This document shows, in pieces, positions 1 through 25,914 of a stretch of DNA of 28,533 bases; within the stretch, counting starts at the first letter, position 1, and each line of letters opens with the position of its first letter. Both the position numbers and the translations under genes were made by a program. The DNA lies in IMG/VR virus record IMGVR_UViG_3300035698_009461, positions 1 through 28,533 of that record. One strand, written 5' to 3'. The notes beneath the pieces were generated by a model. That model saw nothing but the letters and a program-made list of their open reading frames with translations, searched no databases and was not told the origin of the DNA. The stretch comes from a virus.

Positions 1-127
1 ATTTTTGGCACCCTGTCCCCATCGATAGCAGGGGCCATTTTTGGCACCCTGTCCCCATCGATAGCAGGGGCCATTTTTGGCACCCTGTCCCCATCGATAG
101 CAGGGGCCATTTTTGGCACCCTGTCCC
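1..127. repeat. Perfect 36-bp direct tandem repeat, 3.5 copies in window
   Basis: Copies lie at 1-36, 37-72 and 73-108, with a 19-bp partial copy at 109-127. All are identical base for base. Each unit contains a small dyad, CCCTG-N13-CAGGG, and a central ATCGAT palindrome. The array starts at the window edge, so the true copy number is unknown. The period is exactly 12 codons and keeps the minus-strand winged-helix frame open, giving repeats of DRVPKMAPAIDG. Confidence 0.97.
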
Positions 128-518
128 GGCGTCTGGTTGATTCTTCCGCGCGAACTGCCTTCTGGGCAGCAATCCGCTCAGCACGCGACGCCTGCTCTGC
201 CGTTAGCCGATAGCTTCGCCAGGCATCACACGCACGATAGGATCCGCTGTACCCCGATCCGCATGGCTCAACGAAACCATGCTCCACTAACTCGGCCCGA
301 GCGCGCCTGAAAGTCGTTCGAGAACAGACGCACGCGGCTTTCGCCCACGTGAACTGAACGCCGCCAACGGAGCCGTGCCTCGTCGCGTAGTTCCATCTGC
401 CAACGAACTCCGTAAGCAACACGGTAGCCCTCGTCGAAAGGGCCAAGGCGGCCGGACTGGTGACCATCTCCAGGTCCAGCTTGATGAATTGAGCCGGTGT
501 CTGCGTGTCTTGGGTCAT
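1..518 (-). CDS. Winged-helix protein with C-terminal 12-aa tandem repeats (partial, open at left edge)
   Basis: The frame opens with ATG at 516-518, overlapping the stop of the HTH gene upstream by ATGA, and has no stop down to base 1, so the C-terminus lies outside the window. I translated it by hand. Residues ~20-105 look like a winged helix: a hydrophobic helix (VLLTEFVGRWNY), then a recognition-helix-like segment (SRTTFRRARAELVEHGFVE), then a Gly/Tyr/Ser-rich wing. A charged linker (AERIAAQKAVRAEESTRRR) leads into exact repeats of DRVPKMAPAIDG: three whole copies plus part of a fourth in view. Small phage and plasmid replication initiators or regulators often have this wHTH layout. Coupling to an excisionase-like gene fits an early regulatory or replication role. 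The function is inferred; the reading frame and repeat are directly seen. Confidence 0.75.
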   Translation of the reverse strand, partial: MTQDTQTPAQFIKLDLEMVTSPAALALSTRATVLLTEFVGRWNYATRHGSVGGVQFTWAKAACVCSRTTFRRARAELVEHGFVEPCGSGYSGSYRACDAWRSYRLTAEQASRAERIAAQKAVRAEESTRRRDRVPKMAPAIDGDRVPKMAPAIDGDRVPKMAPAIDGDRVPK

Positions 519-745
519 CGGTCTGCCTTTCGGCATTGGACTAGGCTTTGCTCAATCCAGAGGTCAAGGTCTTGGGTGCGATACCGGATGCTCTTTCTGC
601 CGAGACGGACGTAAGGGGGGCCGTTCCGCGACTCGTTCTTCGGCCTGTAGTGTCTGGACTTCCGTAGCCATTGGGGGGACAGGCTGACGTACTCGGCTGC
701 CTCGGCTTCGGTCAACAAATACGTGGCTTTCCCTTGCTCGCTCAT
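515..745 (-). CDS. Excisionase/AlpA-like helix-turn-helix protein
   Basis: A 76-residue protein. It begins with LLTEAEAAEYVSLSPQWLRK, the canonical HTH_17/excisionase opening in which a short helix pair is followed by a Leu-Arg-Lys recognition helix. PPYVRLGRKSIRY (the wing strand) and a final DLDLWIEQ helix follow. I chose the ATG at 743-745 because AAGGAG lies a few bases upstream of it; an in-frame ATG at 764-766 would put that site inside the gene. This family binds DNA to steer integrase toward excision, or acts as a transcription activator (AlpA type). Its stop overlaps the next start (ATGA). It is transcribed away from the integrase, which lies on the other strand. Confidence 0.8.
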   Translation of the reverse strand: MSEQGKATYLLTEAEAAEYVSLSPQWLRKSRHYRPKNESRNGPPYVRLGRKSIRYRTQDLDLWIEQSLVQCRKADR

Positions 746-870
746 TGCATTCTCCTTGGTTGCCATGCCAGATTTTGTCTCTCATGGCTTCACCGTGGAG
801 AACCGTACCAAGACAAATCAACCCCCAATTAATGGCGGATGAAGGGCATTCATATCCAATAGGTACGCTG

Positions 871-899
871 TTGAATTCTCTCGCATCAGGTGCAATACT
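871..899 (+). promoter_or_regulatory. Putative sigma70 promoter for the Lar-like/integrase genes
   Basis: TTGAAT at 871-876 and AATACT at 894-899 are separated by 17 bases, each matching consensus at 4 of 6 positions. A start site near 906 would give a 35-base leader before the ATG at 941. A short dyad, ATGAA-N5-TTCAT (839-853), sits upstream and could be an operator. The 746-940 gap separates divergent genes, so it must also hold the leftward promoter, which I could not identify. Confidence 0.45.
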
Positions 900-940
900 T
901 TGATCCTTGGTGATTTCTGCTTTCTTGGAAGGAAGGCCCT

Positions 941-1516
941 ATGCGCCCCGCCCTACAGCCCTGCCCGTTCTGCGGAAGCCATCGGCCCGCCGTGCGTCGG
1001 CGCATGCTGGGCTACTCAGACACCCTGCTGGCCTACGGCGTGGGCTGTCTCTGCGGAGCCCATGTGCTTCGAGACTACGAGCGCGGCCGGATATCGGTCC
1101 GCGACTGCCGACAGCAGGCTATCGACGCATGGAACGCCCGAACCCCCGTCGAGGCGCCGACGTGCCCGTGCTGCGGCTCTGAGGAGCTCGCCTGCGGTAT
1201 TGGCGACTGGACAGCCTGGGCACAAGTCAATGCGCCGGTCCATTTCGCCAGTTGCGCGGCCTGTGGGCTCACGACGCTGGGCATGCCACCGCCCCATCTC
1301 ACGATGTACACCGCGCCCGTCTGGCACATCGACGGCGTCACCAGGTGGAACGTCCGCGTTTCGCCCGAGAAGTGGATCGACCCGCGCGCCATCGAGCAAG
1401 CCGACACGAAGGCTACGGACGAGTGGTTGCTTGCCGGGTGGCAATATGATCTGCATATGGAACAATTGCTGTACAAGTGCGCGATGCGGGCGCACCCGCC
1501 GAAGTGGAACAAGTAG
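941..1516 (+). CDS. Lar-like restriction-alleviation family protein with two zinc ribbons
   Basis: A 191-residue protein. The N-terminus carries LQPCPFCGS, with Cys8/Cys11 paired with Cys36/Cys38 (GCLCGA), then AIDAWNAR at ~60-67. This is the signature of Lar/restriction-alleviation zinc ribbons from lambdoid phages. A second ribbon follows, with CPCCGS (Cys75/77/78) and CAACG (Cys105/108). Typical Lar-type proteins are about half this length, so the second ribbon and the ~80-residue tail are extra. GGAAGG lies upstream of the ATG. The family name implies modulation of type I restriction, but most members are uncharacterised. The gene lies directly before the integrase, with about 20 bases between stop and the preferred integrase start. 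Confidence 0.7.
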   Translation: MRPALQPCPFCGSHRPAVRRRMLGYSDTLLAYGVGCLCGAHVLRDYERGRISVRDCRQQAIDAWNARTPVEAPTCPCCGSEELACGIGDWTAWAQVNAPVHFASCAACGLTTLGMPPPHLTMYTAPVWHIDGVTRWNVRVSPEKWIDPRAIEQADTKATDEWLLAGWQYDLHMEQLLYKCAMRAHPPKWNK

Positions 1517-1533
1517 GGGGAGTTTTGTCCCAA

Positions 1534-2670
1534 GTGAGACAAAATAGGTCAGACGGGCCGGTGGTCACCGCGCGGCCCAATCGCAAACGCGGCACGTGGT
1601 ACGCAGACGTGCTCTGGCAAGACTCCGGCAAGCGGACCCGGCCGTCCCTCGGAGTGCCCATCGACCAAGACCCGGCGGCCGCGCTCGCAGATTTCAAGCG
1701 TGAGATTCTTCCGGGTATGATTCGAGAGCACCACCAGGCCCAGTTCGTGGCATCGCACGAGTCCTCCGAGACCGGGGAAGCCGGGCCGCGACTTCGGGAT
1801 CTGGCCGATTGGATGGTCGACGTCCACCTGCCGTTCCTCGGGCGCGCTCCGAAGACGATCATGCACTACCGGCGCGTCCTCACGGACTTCGTGGCCTACT
1901 GCGCTACGCGCCACGTTGCCCGCGCTAGCCAACTCTCCTGGCGAATCGTCCAAGAGTGGCAGACGTGGGCCGGGACGATTCGCGGGGATGGGGCGCCGTC
2001 CCGGGATCAGCTTCGAGCCGTGCGCCACTGGCTGAACGAAGCCCACGAGGCGGGGGAACTACAGGAAGCCTCGAATATCAAGTGGACGTTGCCCAAAAAG
2101 AAGAAAGGCTCGCGATTTCGGGCCATAGATCGGGAAGAAATCGCCCGTTTTGAGGCGGCCCTGCAAGACGGGAAACCGGCCCTGTATCCCGTCATCGCCT
2201 GGTGCTACGCCACGGGCTGGCGAATCTCAGACGTGCTCGATCTCCGGTGGGGCGAAGTGGACACGAAGCGGGGCATGATCGAGCGAGAGCAGATCAAGAC
2301 CTCGGCCGCTTTGCCGTATCCCATCACGCCGCGCATGCGGGAACTGCTGGGCGTTGCCCGCGCCGGACTGCCGAAGAAGATGGCGCCGGCCGCCTACGTG
2401 TTCCGGGACGCCAAGGGGAAGCCGTGGACCTACCACCGCTTCAAGAAGAAGCTCGAGTACTTCATCAAGAAGCGATGGGATGGGGAGAACATCACGCCCC
2501 GCGATCTCCGAAAGTCGTTCGGCTCGCACCTGGCTATGGCCGGCTGTCCTCCGAACGTTTTGAAAGAGCTACTCGGTCATGAAGACGTGGCCTTGACGCT
2601 TTCCTTCTACGTTGACGTGGACATGGGCCGCATGGCCGAGTGGGCTGTCAGGCATCAGGACGGGCGATAG
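1534..2670 (+). CDS. int: Tyrosine recombinase (phage integrase)
   Basis: A site-specific recombinase for integration and excision. With the GTG start at 1534 it has 378 residues. The N-terminal part is an arm/core-binding SAM-like domain (LRDLADWMVDVHLPF... TIMHYRRVLTDFVAYC). The catalytic domain shows Arg230 in ATGWRISDVLDLRW, Lys255 in EQIK, Arg326 in PRDLRKS, His349 in LLGHED and the nucleophile Tyr359 in LSFY. The first His of the usual HxxR box is Arg here (RDLR). Start choice: AGGGGGAG at 1515-1522 lies 11 bases before GTG 1534; in-frame GTG 1477 and TTG 1525 are alternatives, the former overlapping the upstream gene. Its 3' end overlaps the opposing small gene by 23 bases. Confidence 0.93.
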   Translation: MRQNRSDGPVVTARPNRKRGTWYADVLWQDSGKRTRPSLGVPIDQDPAAALADFKREILPGMIREHHQAQFVASHESSETGEAGPRLRDLADWMVDVHLPFLGRAPKTIMHYRRVLTDFVAYCATRHVARASQLSWRIVQEWQTWAGTIRGDGAPSRDQLRAVRHWLNEAHEAGELQEASNIKWTLPKKKKGSRFRAIDREEIARFEAALQDGKPALYPVIAWCYATGWRISDVLDLRWGEVDTKRGMIEREQIKTSAALPYPITPRMRELLGVARAGLPKKMAPAAYVFRDAKGKPWTYHRFKKKLEYFIKKRWDGENITPRDLRKSFGSHLAMAGCPPNVLKELLGHEDVALTLSFYVDVDMGRMAEWAVRHQDGR

Positions 2671-24625: not shown

Positions 24626-25045
24626 CTAACGTTCCACGGGGAACGAGCCGGAATGTATGGATCCAGTTCGGTATTCTTCGATACGGCAGGCCGCGAGGTA
24701 ACAAATGGGGATTGCCCCGCCGAGCCCCGCATAGGCCTCGCCTACCGGCGTCGATGACGTGACGCCCTGCCTTTGAATGGCCGCGCGGACCTCCATGTCC
24801 GGATCTAAGAGGCGGAACAACGCCTGCTCAAAGACGGCCGCCTTCATGGGATCCGTCGGGTCTTCGGTCAGGTCTTCGAGATCGCCATCAAGGAAGGTGT
24901 AGTGCTCCGCCGCTTCGATGTCGGCCTGGGCCGTCGTGAGCACGGCGGTTTTCGTGGCCTTGACGGATGGCCATTTGGCCGCGGCTCCGTGCCGAGTCAC
25001 CATGTAGGCGTCTGCCTCTGTAATCGTTACCCAAAGATCGCTCAT
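24626..25045 (-). CDS. Probable head-tail connector (neck) protein
   Basis: A 139-residue protein from ATG 25045, which has GGAGG 7 bases upstream and overlaps the methylase stop (ATGA). It opens with VTITEADAYMVTRHG, an N-terminal pattern frequent in gp6/DnaT-like phage neck proteins. A helical middle follows (QADIEAAEHYTFLD, AAVFEQALFRLLDPDMEVRA), then QRQGVTSSTPVGEAYAGLG and a short end. Proteins of this pattern join the portal to the tail. The name is by resemblance, and the position before the lysis-type genes is unusual for a connector. Confidence 0.55.
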   Translation of the reverse strand: MSDLWVTITEADAYMVTRHGAAAKWPSVKATKTAVLTTAQADIEAAEHYTFLDGDLEDLTEDPTDPMKAAVFEQALFRLLDPDMEVRAAIQRQGVTSSTPVGEAYAGLGGAIPICYLAACRIEEYRTGSIHSGSFPVER

Positions 25046-25914
25046 CGTGCTGCCTCCATAAGTTCCATTTGTTTCGCGCCCACGCAATGCGGCGAGAACC
25101 AGATCCGCTCACGGTTCGCGTTGTCCTTGCCGCGCCCGTCGCCCTGCGAGCCGTAGCCGCCCGCCGCTTTCCACGCCACGCATTCCCAATCGTCCGGCAT
25201 GGCGTGCTCGCCGTCGTAGCCACACAGTGCGATCCGGTATTGGTCGTTGTCGCCGTGCTCGATTGCCCAAGCGCGCGCCCGGGCCGACGTGTCGTCCTCG
25301 TTGTGCGCGTAGACCTTCATGCAGTCGCTTGAGTACGGCGGATCAAGAAACATGCCCGTCTGGCCTAGCCGCTCAGTCACACACGGCGTCGCCACACGCG
25401 CCCAGTCGCCGCACGTCACACGGGTATCGCGTAGCCTGTTAGCTAACGCCGCCATGATCCCACGAATGTAATCGCGACGGTTGATGCCCATGCCGGGGTC
25501 GCCGAGGTGCGTGCTGTCCGGTTTCCAACTGTCGCCTATCGTGCAGCAAACACCCCACACCCAAACGCCCGCCACCTCCACGTCGTAGAAGTCCACCTCG
25601 TGCCGCATACGCTGTTCAAGGTCGGGCTGCTGCGCAAAACACCAGCGCCGCCGCGCCGCGAGGTCGAGTTCGTTGACCGGCCAGTCCGCCGCCTCAGCTA
25701 CCGCGTCCGGGTCGTGCTTGACCGCGCGCCAGAAGTTCGCTATGAAGCCGTCCATATCGTTGACCGTCTCGGTCTTGGGCTCGTGTGGGCGCGCCAGGAG
25801 CACAGCCAATGAGCCCGCGAACGGCTCGACGTAGTTCGGCACGTTCCCGAACCGTTGCCAGACGATATCCGCGACACGGGACTTGCCGCCGAACCATGGG
25901 AAGGGTGCCTTCAT
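25042..25914 (-). CDS. Dam-type (D12 class) DNA N6-adenine methyltransferase
   Basis: A 290-residue protein. N-terminal PFPWFGGKSRV (residues 4-14) and YVEPFAGSLAVLL (28-40) make up the AdoMet-binding part, and FLDPPYSSD (189-197) is the catalytic DPPY motif. This order is that of the D12 class to which Dam and DpnM belong. No restriction gene is nearby, so it is a solitary phage methylase, which could shield phage DNA from host nucleases or affect packaging and gene control. Its target is probably GATC-like but unproven. AAGGAG precedes the ATG, which overlaps the upstream methyltransferase stop; its stop overlaps the neck gene (ATGA). Confidence 0.85.
   Translation of the reverse strand: MKAPFPWFGGKSRVADIVWQRFGNVPNYVEPFAGSLAVLLARPHEPKTETVNDMDGFIANFWRAVKHDPDAVAEAADWPVNELDLAARRRWCFAQQPDLEQRMRHEVDFYDVEVAGVWVWGVCCTIGDSWKPDSTHLGDPGMGINRRDYIRGIMAALANRLRDTRVTCGDWARVATPCVTERLGQTGMFLDPPYSSDCMKVYAHNEDDTSARARAWAIEHGDNDQYRIALCGYDGEHAMPDDWECVAWKAAGGYGSQGDGRGKDNANRERIWFSPHCVGAKQMELMEAAR

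Follow-up and report, generated by a model that had tools for sequence, protein, structure and literature searches.

The window analysed here is a 28,533-bp virus record of IMG/VR, classed linear, which begins inside a minus-strand winged-helix gene cut by the contig edge. From an ATG at position 518, its frame reads MTQD...STRR(DRVPKMAPAIDG)x3 DRVPK and is still open at the edge, and a tandem repeat array makes up the 3' end of the gene without breaking the frame. A small HTH_17 gene is located upstream in the same operon, and the winged-helix start overlaps its stop codon as ATGA. The features of this region are the following:

1-127, minus strand: tandem array of candidate iterons, 36-bp period, 3.5 exact copies
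101-123, minus strand: A-tract-centred dyad 1, CAGGGTGCCAAAAATGGCCCCTG, core site 103-121
65-87, minus strand: dyad 2, identical to dyad 1, core site 67-85
29-51, minus strand: dyad 3, identical to dyad 1, core site 31-49
3-518, minus strand: winged-helix ORF, predicted replication initiator with an iteron-encoded tail, 172 codons seen, no stop, cut by the edge
129-518, minus strand: winged-helix domain and C-terminal helix, 130 aa (AlphaFold2 model, mean pLDDT 79)
515-766, minus strand: HTH_17 or AlpA/Xis-like small protein (HTH_17 E 2.9e-6; phrog_66 excisionase E 2.4e-4)
941-1516, plus strand: Lar-like restriction alleviation protein, divergent neighbour (Lar_restr_allev E 5.1e-9)
1477-2670, plus strand: tyrosine integrase, marker of an early/integration module (Phage_integrase E 9.5e-23; phrog_1 E 8.9e-40)

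A gene for a D12-class adenine DNA methyltransferase is present at 25042-25914 (E 2.5e-11) and, together with the Lar-like gene at 941-1516, could provide two anti-restriction functions.

Tandem Repeats Finder returned a single array in the window, at positions 1-127, with a period of 36 bp, 3.5 copies and 100% match, which confirms the original prediction of an exact repeat forming the tail of an open winged-helix frame. Its 30-bp core occurs three times with no mismatch, where shuffled sequences are expected to give none. The perfect repeat is exactly 127 bases long, and 127 is the largest k commonly used by metagenome assemblers; a contig ending on such a stretch therefore suggests that the real array is longer than 127 bp and that the assembler left its copy number unsettled. 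The identity of the copies at synonymous positions had been put forward as a mark of constraint at the DNA level. This argument fails, because the spacers between the dyads are as identical as the dyads themselves, and the exact copies in the window are best read as the product of a recent tandem amplification. Since the 36-bp period corresponds to 12 codons and is divisible by three, units could be gained or lost in frame, and the copy number is probably variable. An exact 34-mer of the repeat had no match in IMG/VR. The looser 19-base site had one, a hairpin-like palindrome with a T tail; no winged-helix ORF was seen close to it, and it was taken as a chance match. Another motif, GGGGACAAAATGTCCCC (peptide GDKMSP), was retrieved in 44 contigs, nearly all with single scattered sites and with no winged-helix tails seen, and was dropped.

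Both elements originally predicted in each unit, CCCTG-N13-CAGGG and ATCGAT, are present, but the dyad centred on ATCGAT is probably not the relevant one. A stronger dyad lies half a period away, centred on an A-tract and reading CAGGG-T-GCCA-AAAA-TGGC-CCCTG on the gene strand. It comprises nine pairs, one bulge and a 4-nt centre, and is equalled by shuffled units with P = 0.006 (0.6%). As single-stranded DNA, the A-centred unit folds with z = -3.0 (0/200 shuffles as good), against -2.3 for the ATCGAT-centred frame. By hand calculation, a plain 6+4+6 dyad is expected in a 36-mer with a chance of ~0.8, so that the plain form with 6-bp arms is not evidence alone, while the extended nine-pair form is. 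The window sites can thus be described as semi-palindromes converging on the A-tract, CAGGGTGCCA-AAAA-TGGCCCCTG, with a 1-bp asymmetry. Their core has no occurrence elsewhere in the window, and the three identical copies pass the shuffle cut of p <= 0.02 used below for the relatives.

No close relative of the window phage was found in the repeat, winged-helix and integrase searches. The winged helix had no tblastn match in phage and plasmid collections, the integrase had none in IMG/VR, and a single-sequence search with the winged-helix protein gave one match in IMG/VR, at 39% (L002). An alignment of the window with L002 and L004 led to a single locus, L050 of Lutimaribacter, among 84,980 species genomes, and profiles built from these sequences brought in more members in the Rhodobacteraceae and across the Pseudomonadota. 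At the thresholds used, a profile match was obtained in 38 genomes (249 Rhodobacteraceae searched) and in 32 (398 Pseudomonadota searched), the true number being lower because some of the Rhodobacteraceae matches are weak matches to GntR regulators. Conversely, a profile of 45 relatives, from which the window, L002 and L004 were excluded, found the window ORF over the whole domain (51-55 bits; 51.2 bits, E 2.4e-15) as its only significant match among 339 window ORFs, with the caveat that these relatives had been gathered with profiles holding the window as one row of 4 or 11. On this profile evidence, the window gene belongs to a divergent family of mobile-element winged-helix initiators (profile A4/A5). 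One member of the family (L060, G091) is ended by a stop codon after the winged helix, and the DNA that follows resembles an inserted transposase gene.

The affiliation of the family to replication proteins was obtained from members scanned one by one. The DnaD-like helicase loader family phrog_186 was matched by 30 of the 48 members (best 3.7e-12), the replication initiation protein family phrog_270 by 22, and the O-like families 678 and 345 by 10 and 9, respectively. HTH_36 (PF13730), the commonest Pfam match (27/48), is also a domain of Paracoccus plasmid Rep proteins (PMC3832669) and of the pPR9 initiator (PMC5703833). The phage replication protein O model (PF04492 / TIGR01610) was matched by one of 48 relatives and did not match the window; in the sole annotated phage record reached, that of Pseudomonas phage vB_Pae_U1, the gene is labelled “replication protein O”. 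For the window protein itself, the best PHROG match was not significant (phrog_428, replication, E 0.37) and neither PHROG nor Pfam gave a match at 0.001, so that its link to initiators rests on the family profile. For the structural model, the eight best fold matches in the PDB are N-terminal domains of RepA_N initiators (4pt7, 4pta, 4pql, 5kbj), followed by the DnaD N-terminal domain (2v79), the RepA_N matches being modest (E 0.03-0.1, TM 0.45-0.51). In the sequence profile, RepA_N structures align over positions 9-96, most of the domain, whereas transcription factors align mainly over the HTH. These comparisons place the winged helix among the relatives of replication initiators from phages and plasmids.

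Repeat arrays at the gene end are a frequent trait of this family. A shuffle-based de novo scan, calling an array at three or more copies with p <= 0.02, detected significant private dyad arrays at the end of 27 of the 48 genes tested, window included, against 5 of 130 3' ends of other ORFs and one of nine GntR gene ends; the shuffles were mononucleotide, which makes individual p-values rough and the 5/130 control rate the better guide. Applied to lambda O, the same scan returned exactly the four annotated iterons of lambda. The relatives' dyads are 15-18 bp long, in 3-6 copies per gene end, and differ from one element to another, for example GTTCAGAAACTGAAC (L109), CCGCAGAAACTGCGA (L115), GTAACGAAAACGTTAC (L002), GTCCGTTCTAAGCGGAC (L100) and CTTCGATAATCGAAG (L111). 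The signal is highest where the 300-bp windows cover the stop codon of the winged-helix gene, with 34-49% of genes above 20 shuffles; elsewhere in the loci it stays at background, mostly 4-15% of genes. Either some members have no array or theirs is too degenerate to be picked up by the scan: the p-value was above 0.05 in 20 of 48 members, and L004 is a family member with no detectable array (p 0.36).

The geometry of these arrays is regular. Spacings of up to 60 bp cluster at 22-24, 31-33, 42-45 and 52-54 bp, with a periodicity near 10.75-11 bp (vector length 0.78), as expected for sites placed on one face of the helix at whole helical turns. The 36-bp spacing of the window falls off this series (22/32/44/53), the nearest value among relatives being 35 (L103, L111). 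The centres of the dyads are A-rich on the gene strand (50% A vs 28%). In the Rhodobacteraceae loci L050 and L051, three copies of GGTTC-N7-GAACC are present at the gene end, at spacings of 32 and 31 bp, with a fourth near-copy past the stop codon, and other Rhodobacteraceae genes keep their sites at the same spacing. A conserved block, CACTAATACTAACCACTC, directly follows the fourth dyad and precedes the ribosome site of the next gene in L051, L053-L059 and L091; a melting element, a promoter or a protein site are the candidates for its role. In L002 (2533-2938), GTAACG-N4-CGTTAC dyads are distributed in the coding tail, across the stop and in the intergenic region. Six AT-rich repeats resembling ATGATAACT come next, along with a number of CGTTAC half sites, so that this segment looks like a complete origin whose AT-rich repeats would resemble a melting region.

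The manner in which the sites overlap coding DNA indicates what is conserved. Coding copies are read in the three phases in numbers of 34, 19 and 16, and about one third of all copies lie beyond the stop codon. In L050 and L051, site 2 is read as VPFENP and sites 1 and 3, in a different frame, as GSxSEP; in L051 and L053, site 4 lies past the stop and its DNA is nevertheless kept. The arrays of L067, L110, L114 and L117 are wholly downstream of the stop, which makes the coding overlap optional. Pseudomonas phage vB_Pae_U1 (L121 4164-4290, PP003913.1) carries four identical GTACAGAAACTGTAC palindrome cores, at -51, -29, +25 and +60 relative to the stop. The initiator gene contains two of them and the next gene, annotated as a DNA primase, the other two, and the cores are read as VQKLY and as GTETVP; a protein module is no explanation for sites spanning two genes in two frames. 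Moreover, the relatives keep their dyads while their spacers vary. Because copies occur in all three frames, and often past the stop or in the next gene, selection on the relatives' arrays acts on the DNA and not on the peptide. The copy-number-variable protein module, which the original prediction had offered as an alternative, is consequently disfavoured. It is the relatives that give the decisive evidence for the reading as probable origin iterons, a role suggested by extension for the array of the window.

With the array, the homology and the DNA-level conservation of such arrays in relatives established, we consider it likely that the window gene is a replication initiator holding the origin iterons in its own 3' end. 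That the window protein binds the window repeats, and that these repeats are the origin, is what we infer from the relatives. An origin is the best reading of several sequence features taken together: the initiator relatives, a position at the 3' end of the gene as in PICIs and SGI1, the occurrence in int-containing elements, and the AT-rich repeats of L002. The Rhodobacteraceae members and L002 are carried by such elements, among which L002 and L088 also have an AlpA-like gene; no other replication gene was recognised there in an annotation that was not exhaustive. The L002 element (int-alpA-HNH-TerL-capsid-portal) is possibly a capsid-forming satellite. L082-L089 are small integrative elements of Rhodobacteraceae in which the integrase gene is followed by a variable gene, then by small genes and the initiator with iterons. 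A gene of roughly 200 aa and one for a Cys-rich protein (RCTAxSKRTGxRC) often come next. The variable gene behind the integrase could be a cargo or defence slot. The parallel drawn in the original prediction with lambda O is well supported at the level of the family, with its initiator relatives and phased dyads at the gene end in any frame, and extends to the window by analogy. The original hypothesis was right in kind, its synonymous-identity argument was not.

Intragenic iteron origins are already known from lambda O, SPP1 gp38 and pSK41 Rep, and each offers a partial likeness. In lambda, a winged-helix initiator also bears iterons inside its gene, and these are likewise A-tract-centred dyads, CCCTC-AAAAC-GAGGG, found by the same scan. 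Stx phages may carry six iterons instead of four, adding 13 aa to O (PMC7466680), an in-frame change in copy number that the period of the window, divisible by three, would allow. The iterons of lambda, however, are mid-gene, 20-24 bp apart and followed by the C-terminal domain of O, whereas the window array is at the gene end with sites 36 bp apart and no known C-terminal domain, the window being cut inside the array; in relatives, the stop falls shortly after the array or before it. Compared directly by profile, lambda O shows weak similarity (E 9e-5, 8.8 bits as a single sequence). The RepA_N initiators of pSK41 and pTZ2162 and the PLE RepA are the best matches by sequence profile and fold. 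The pSK41 rep gene contains four Rep boxes, and the linker that they encode is dispensable (PMC5703833); in RepA_N systems, semi-palindromic iterons converge on a poly-A tract (PMC7145576). These proteins differ by an identity of 12-15%, by a Pfam model (PF06970) that is not listed for the window nor, in the 25 families displayed out of 28, for the relatives, and by a CTD that is host-genus-specific and binds DnaG in pSK41; in PLE, the origin is in a non-coding region and not in repA. SPP1 gp38, a phage origin-binding protein, binds the oriL repeats inside its own gene (PMC6316719), which likewise places origin repeats within the gene of the initiator, but this phage also possesses a second origin, oriR, and encodes a helicase loader (gp39) and a helicase (gp40) of its own. 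PICI and SGI1 rep-oriV modules, finally, have their origin immediately 3' of rep in integrative elements (PMC6092414, PMC7433901), a position and a context shared with the Rhodobacteraceae members and L002. They encode larger Rep proteins, of primase/helicase or RepA_C type, and the iterons have been described downstream of rep, or on the flanks of an AT-rich region after it, and not inside the gene.

The proposed mechanism involves a small phage initiator composed of a winged-helix DNA-binding domain of about 130 aa and an unstructured tail. Each 36-bp repeat would be an iteron with one binding site, formed by inverted repeats converging on the A-tract. Bound next to one another on the array, dimers of the initiator would bend the adjacent DNA and help to open it, and the bound initiator would recruit a helicase or primase of the host or the phage. 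The origin would hence lie within the coding frame of the initiator itself and immediately beyond it, and the 36-bp period would permit in-frame growth and shrinkage of the array, the exact copies representing a recent expansion. Several sequence indicators were compared with this model. The AT enrichment after the relatives' arrays is small (+0.06 in the first 50 bp) and may reflect intergenic DNA; near the arrays, no exact DnaA box and no enrichment of such boxes was found. Covariation with the sites was r 0.58 for the recognition helix vs 0.51 for the rest of the protein over all members, and 0.20 vs 0.16 outside the Rhodobacteraceae clade; because the recognition helix barely exceeds the rest of the protein, this measure cannot separate binding from kinship.

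Phased dyads could also be used by any dimeric winged-helix regulator, and the HTH core of the family matches MarR, Crp and GntR models as well; in the Rhodobacteraceae, the CACTAATACTAACCACTC block after the fourth site is moreover found just before the start of the next gene. The protein could then be a transcription regulator and the repeats an operator cluster for the promoter of the next gene or for gene expression in the module, replication not being involved. We regard this as unlikely, given that replication initiators give the best matches, by family and by fold, across most of the domain and that the arrays are at the 3' end of the gene and not at its own promoter. GntR genes from the same search do not have such arrays, with one exception in nine, and in vB_Pae_U1 the copies continue into the coding gene that follows. 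A search of window positions 1-1600 gave no promoter-like site.

The two other explanations concern the repeat itself. A coding minisatellite, either neutral or serving as a repetitive protein-interaction module, with its copies identical only through recent slippage, would fit the identity of copies and spacers alike, a period that is a multiple of three and a probably variable copy number. It leaves aside that the relatives' dyads are read in different frames and outside the ORF, that they are kept while spacers vary, and that the A-centred dyad is improbable by chance even in one unit (P 0.006), and it appears still less probable than an operator. An assembly artefact at the contig end, which the location of the repeat at the very edge and its length of exactly 127 bases, a common assembly k as generally known, could evoke, is very improbable: a perfect repeat as long as k is expected from a real, longer array that the assembler did not resolve, and the repeat is in frame, at the position where the relatives have their arrays. 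Origin iterons in the 3' end of an initiator gene are thus retained as the preferred reading of the window array.

In the literature searched, which covered few subscription papers, no description was found, for phages and satellites of proteobacteria, of a winged-helix-only protein whose gene has the array at the stop codon or across it; the provisional novelty therefore lies in a short protein with an array at or across its own stop. Beyond the window, and with confidence only a little better than even, we propose a widespread and apparently undescribed family of minimal initiators, made of a winged helix and an iteron-written tail, that would serve temperate phages and small satellites across the Pseudomonadota. 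Each would have private phased iterons running across the stop and into the next gene, initiator specificity and origin diverging together as one compact replicon cassette. If true, phased dyad arrays at the end of winged-helix genes would constitute a computable locator of origins in many uncharacterised prophages and satellites. The family would also offer a natural series of initiator-origin pairs with different specificities, informative on site choice by winged helices and of use in building compatible replicons. Finally, the protein tail would be dictated by a function of the DNA, and the low-complexity tails of such genes need not imply a function of the protein.
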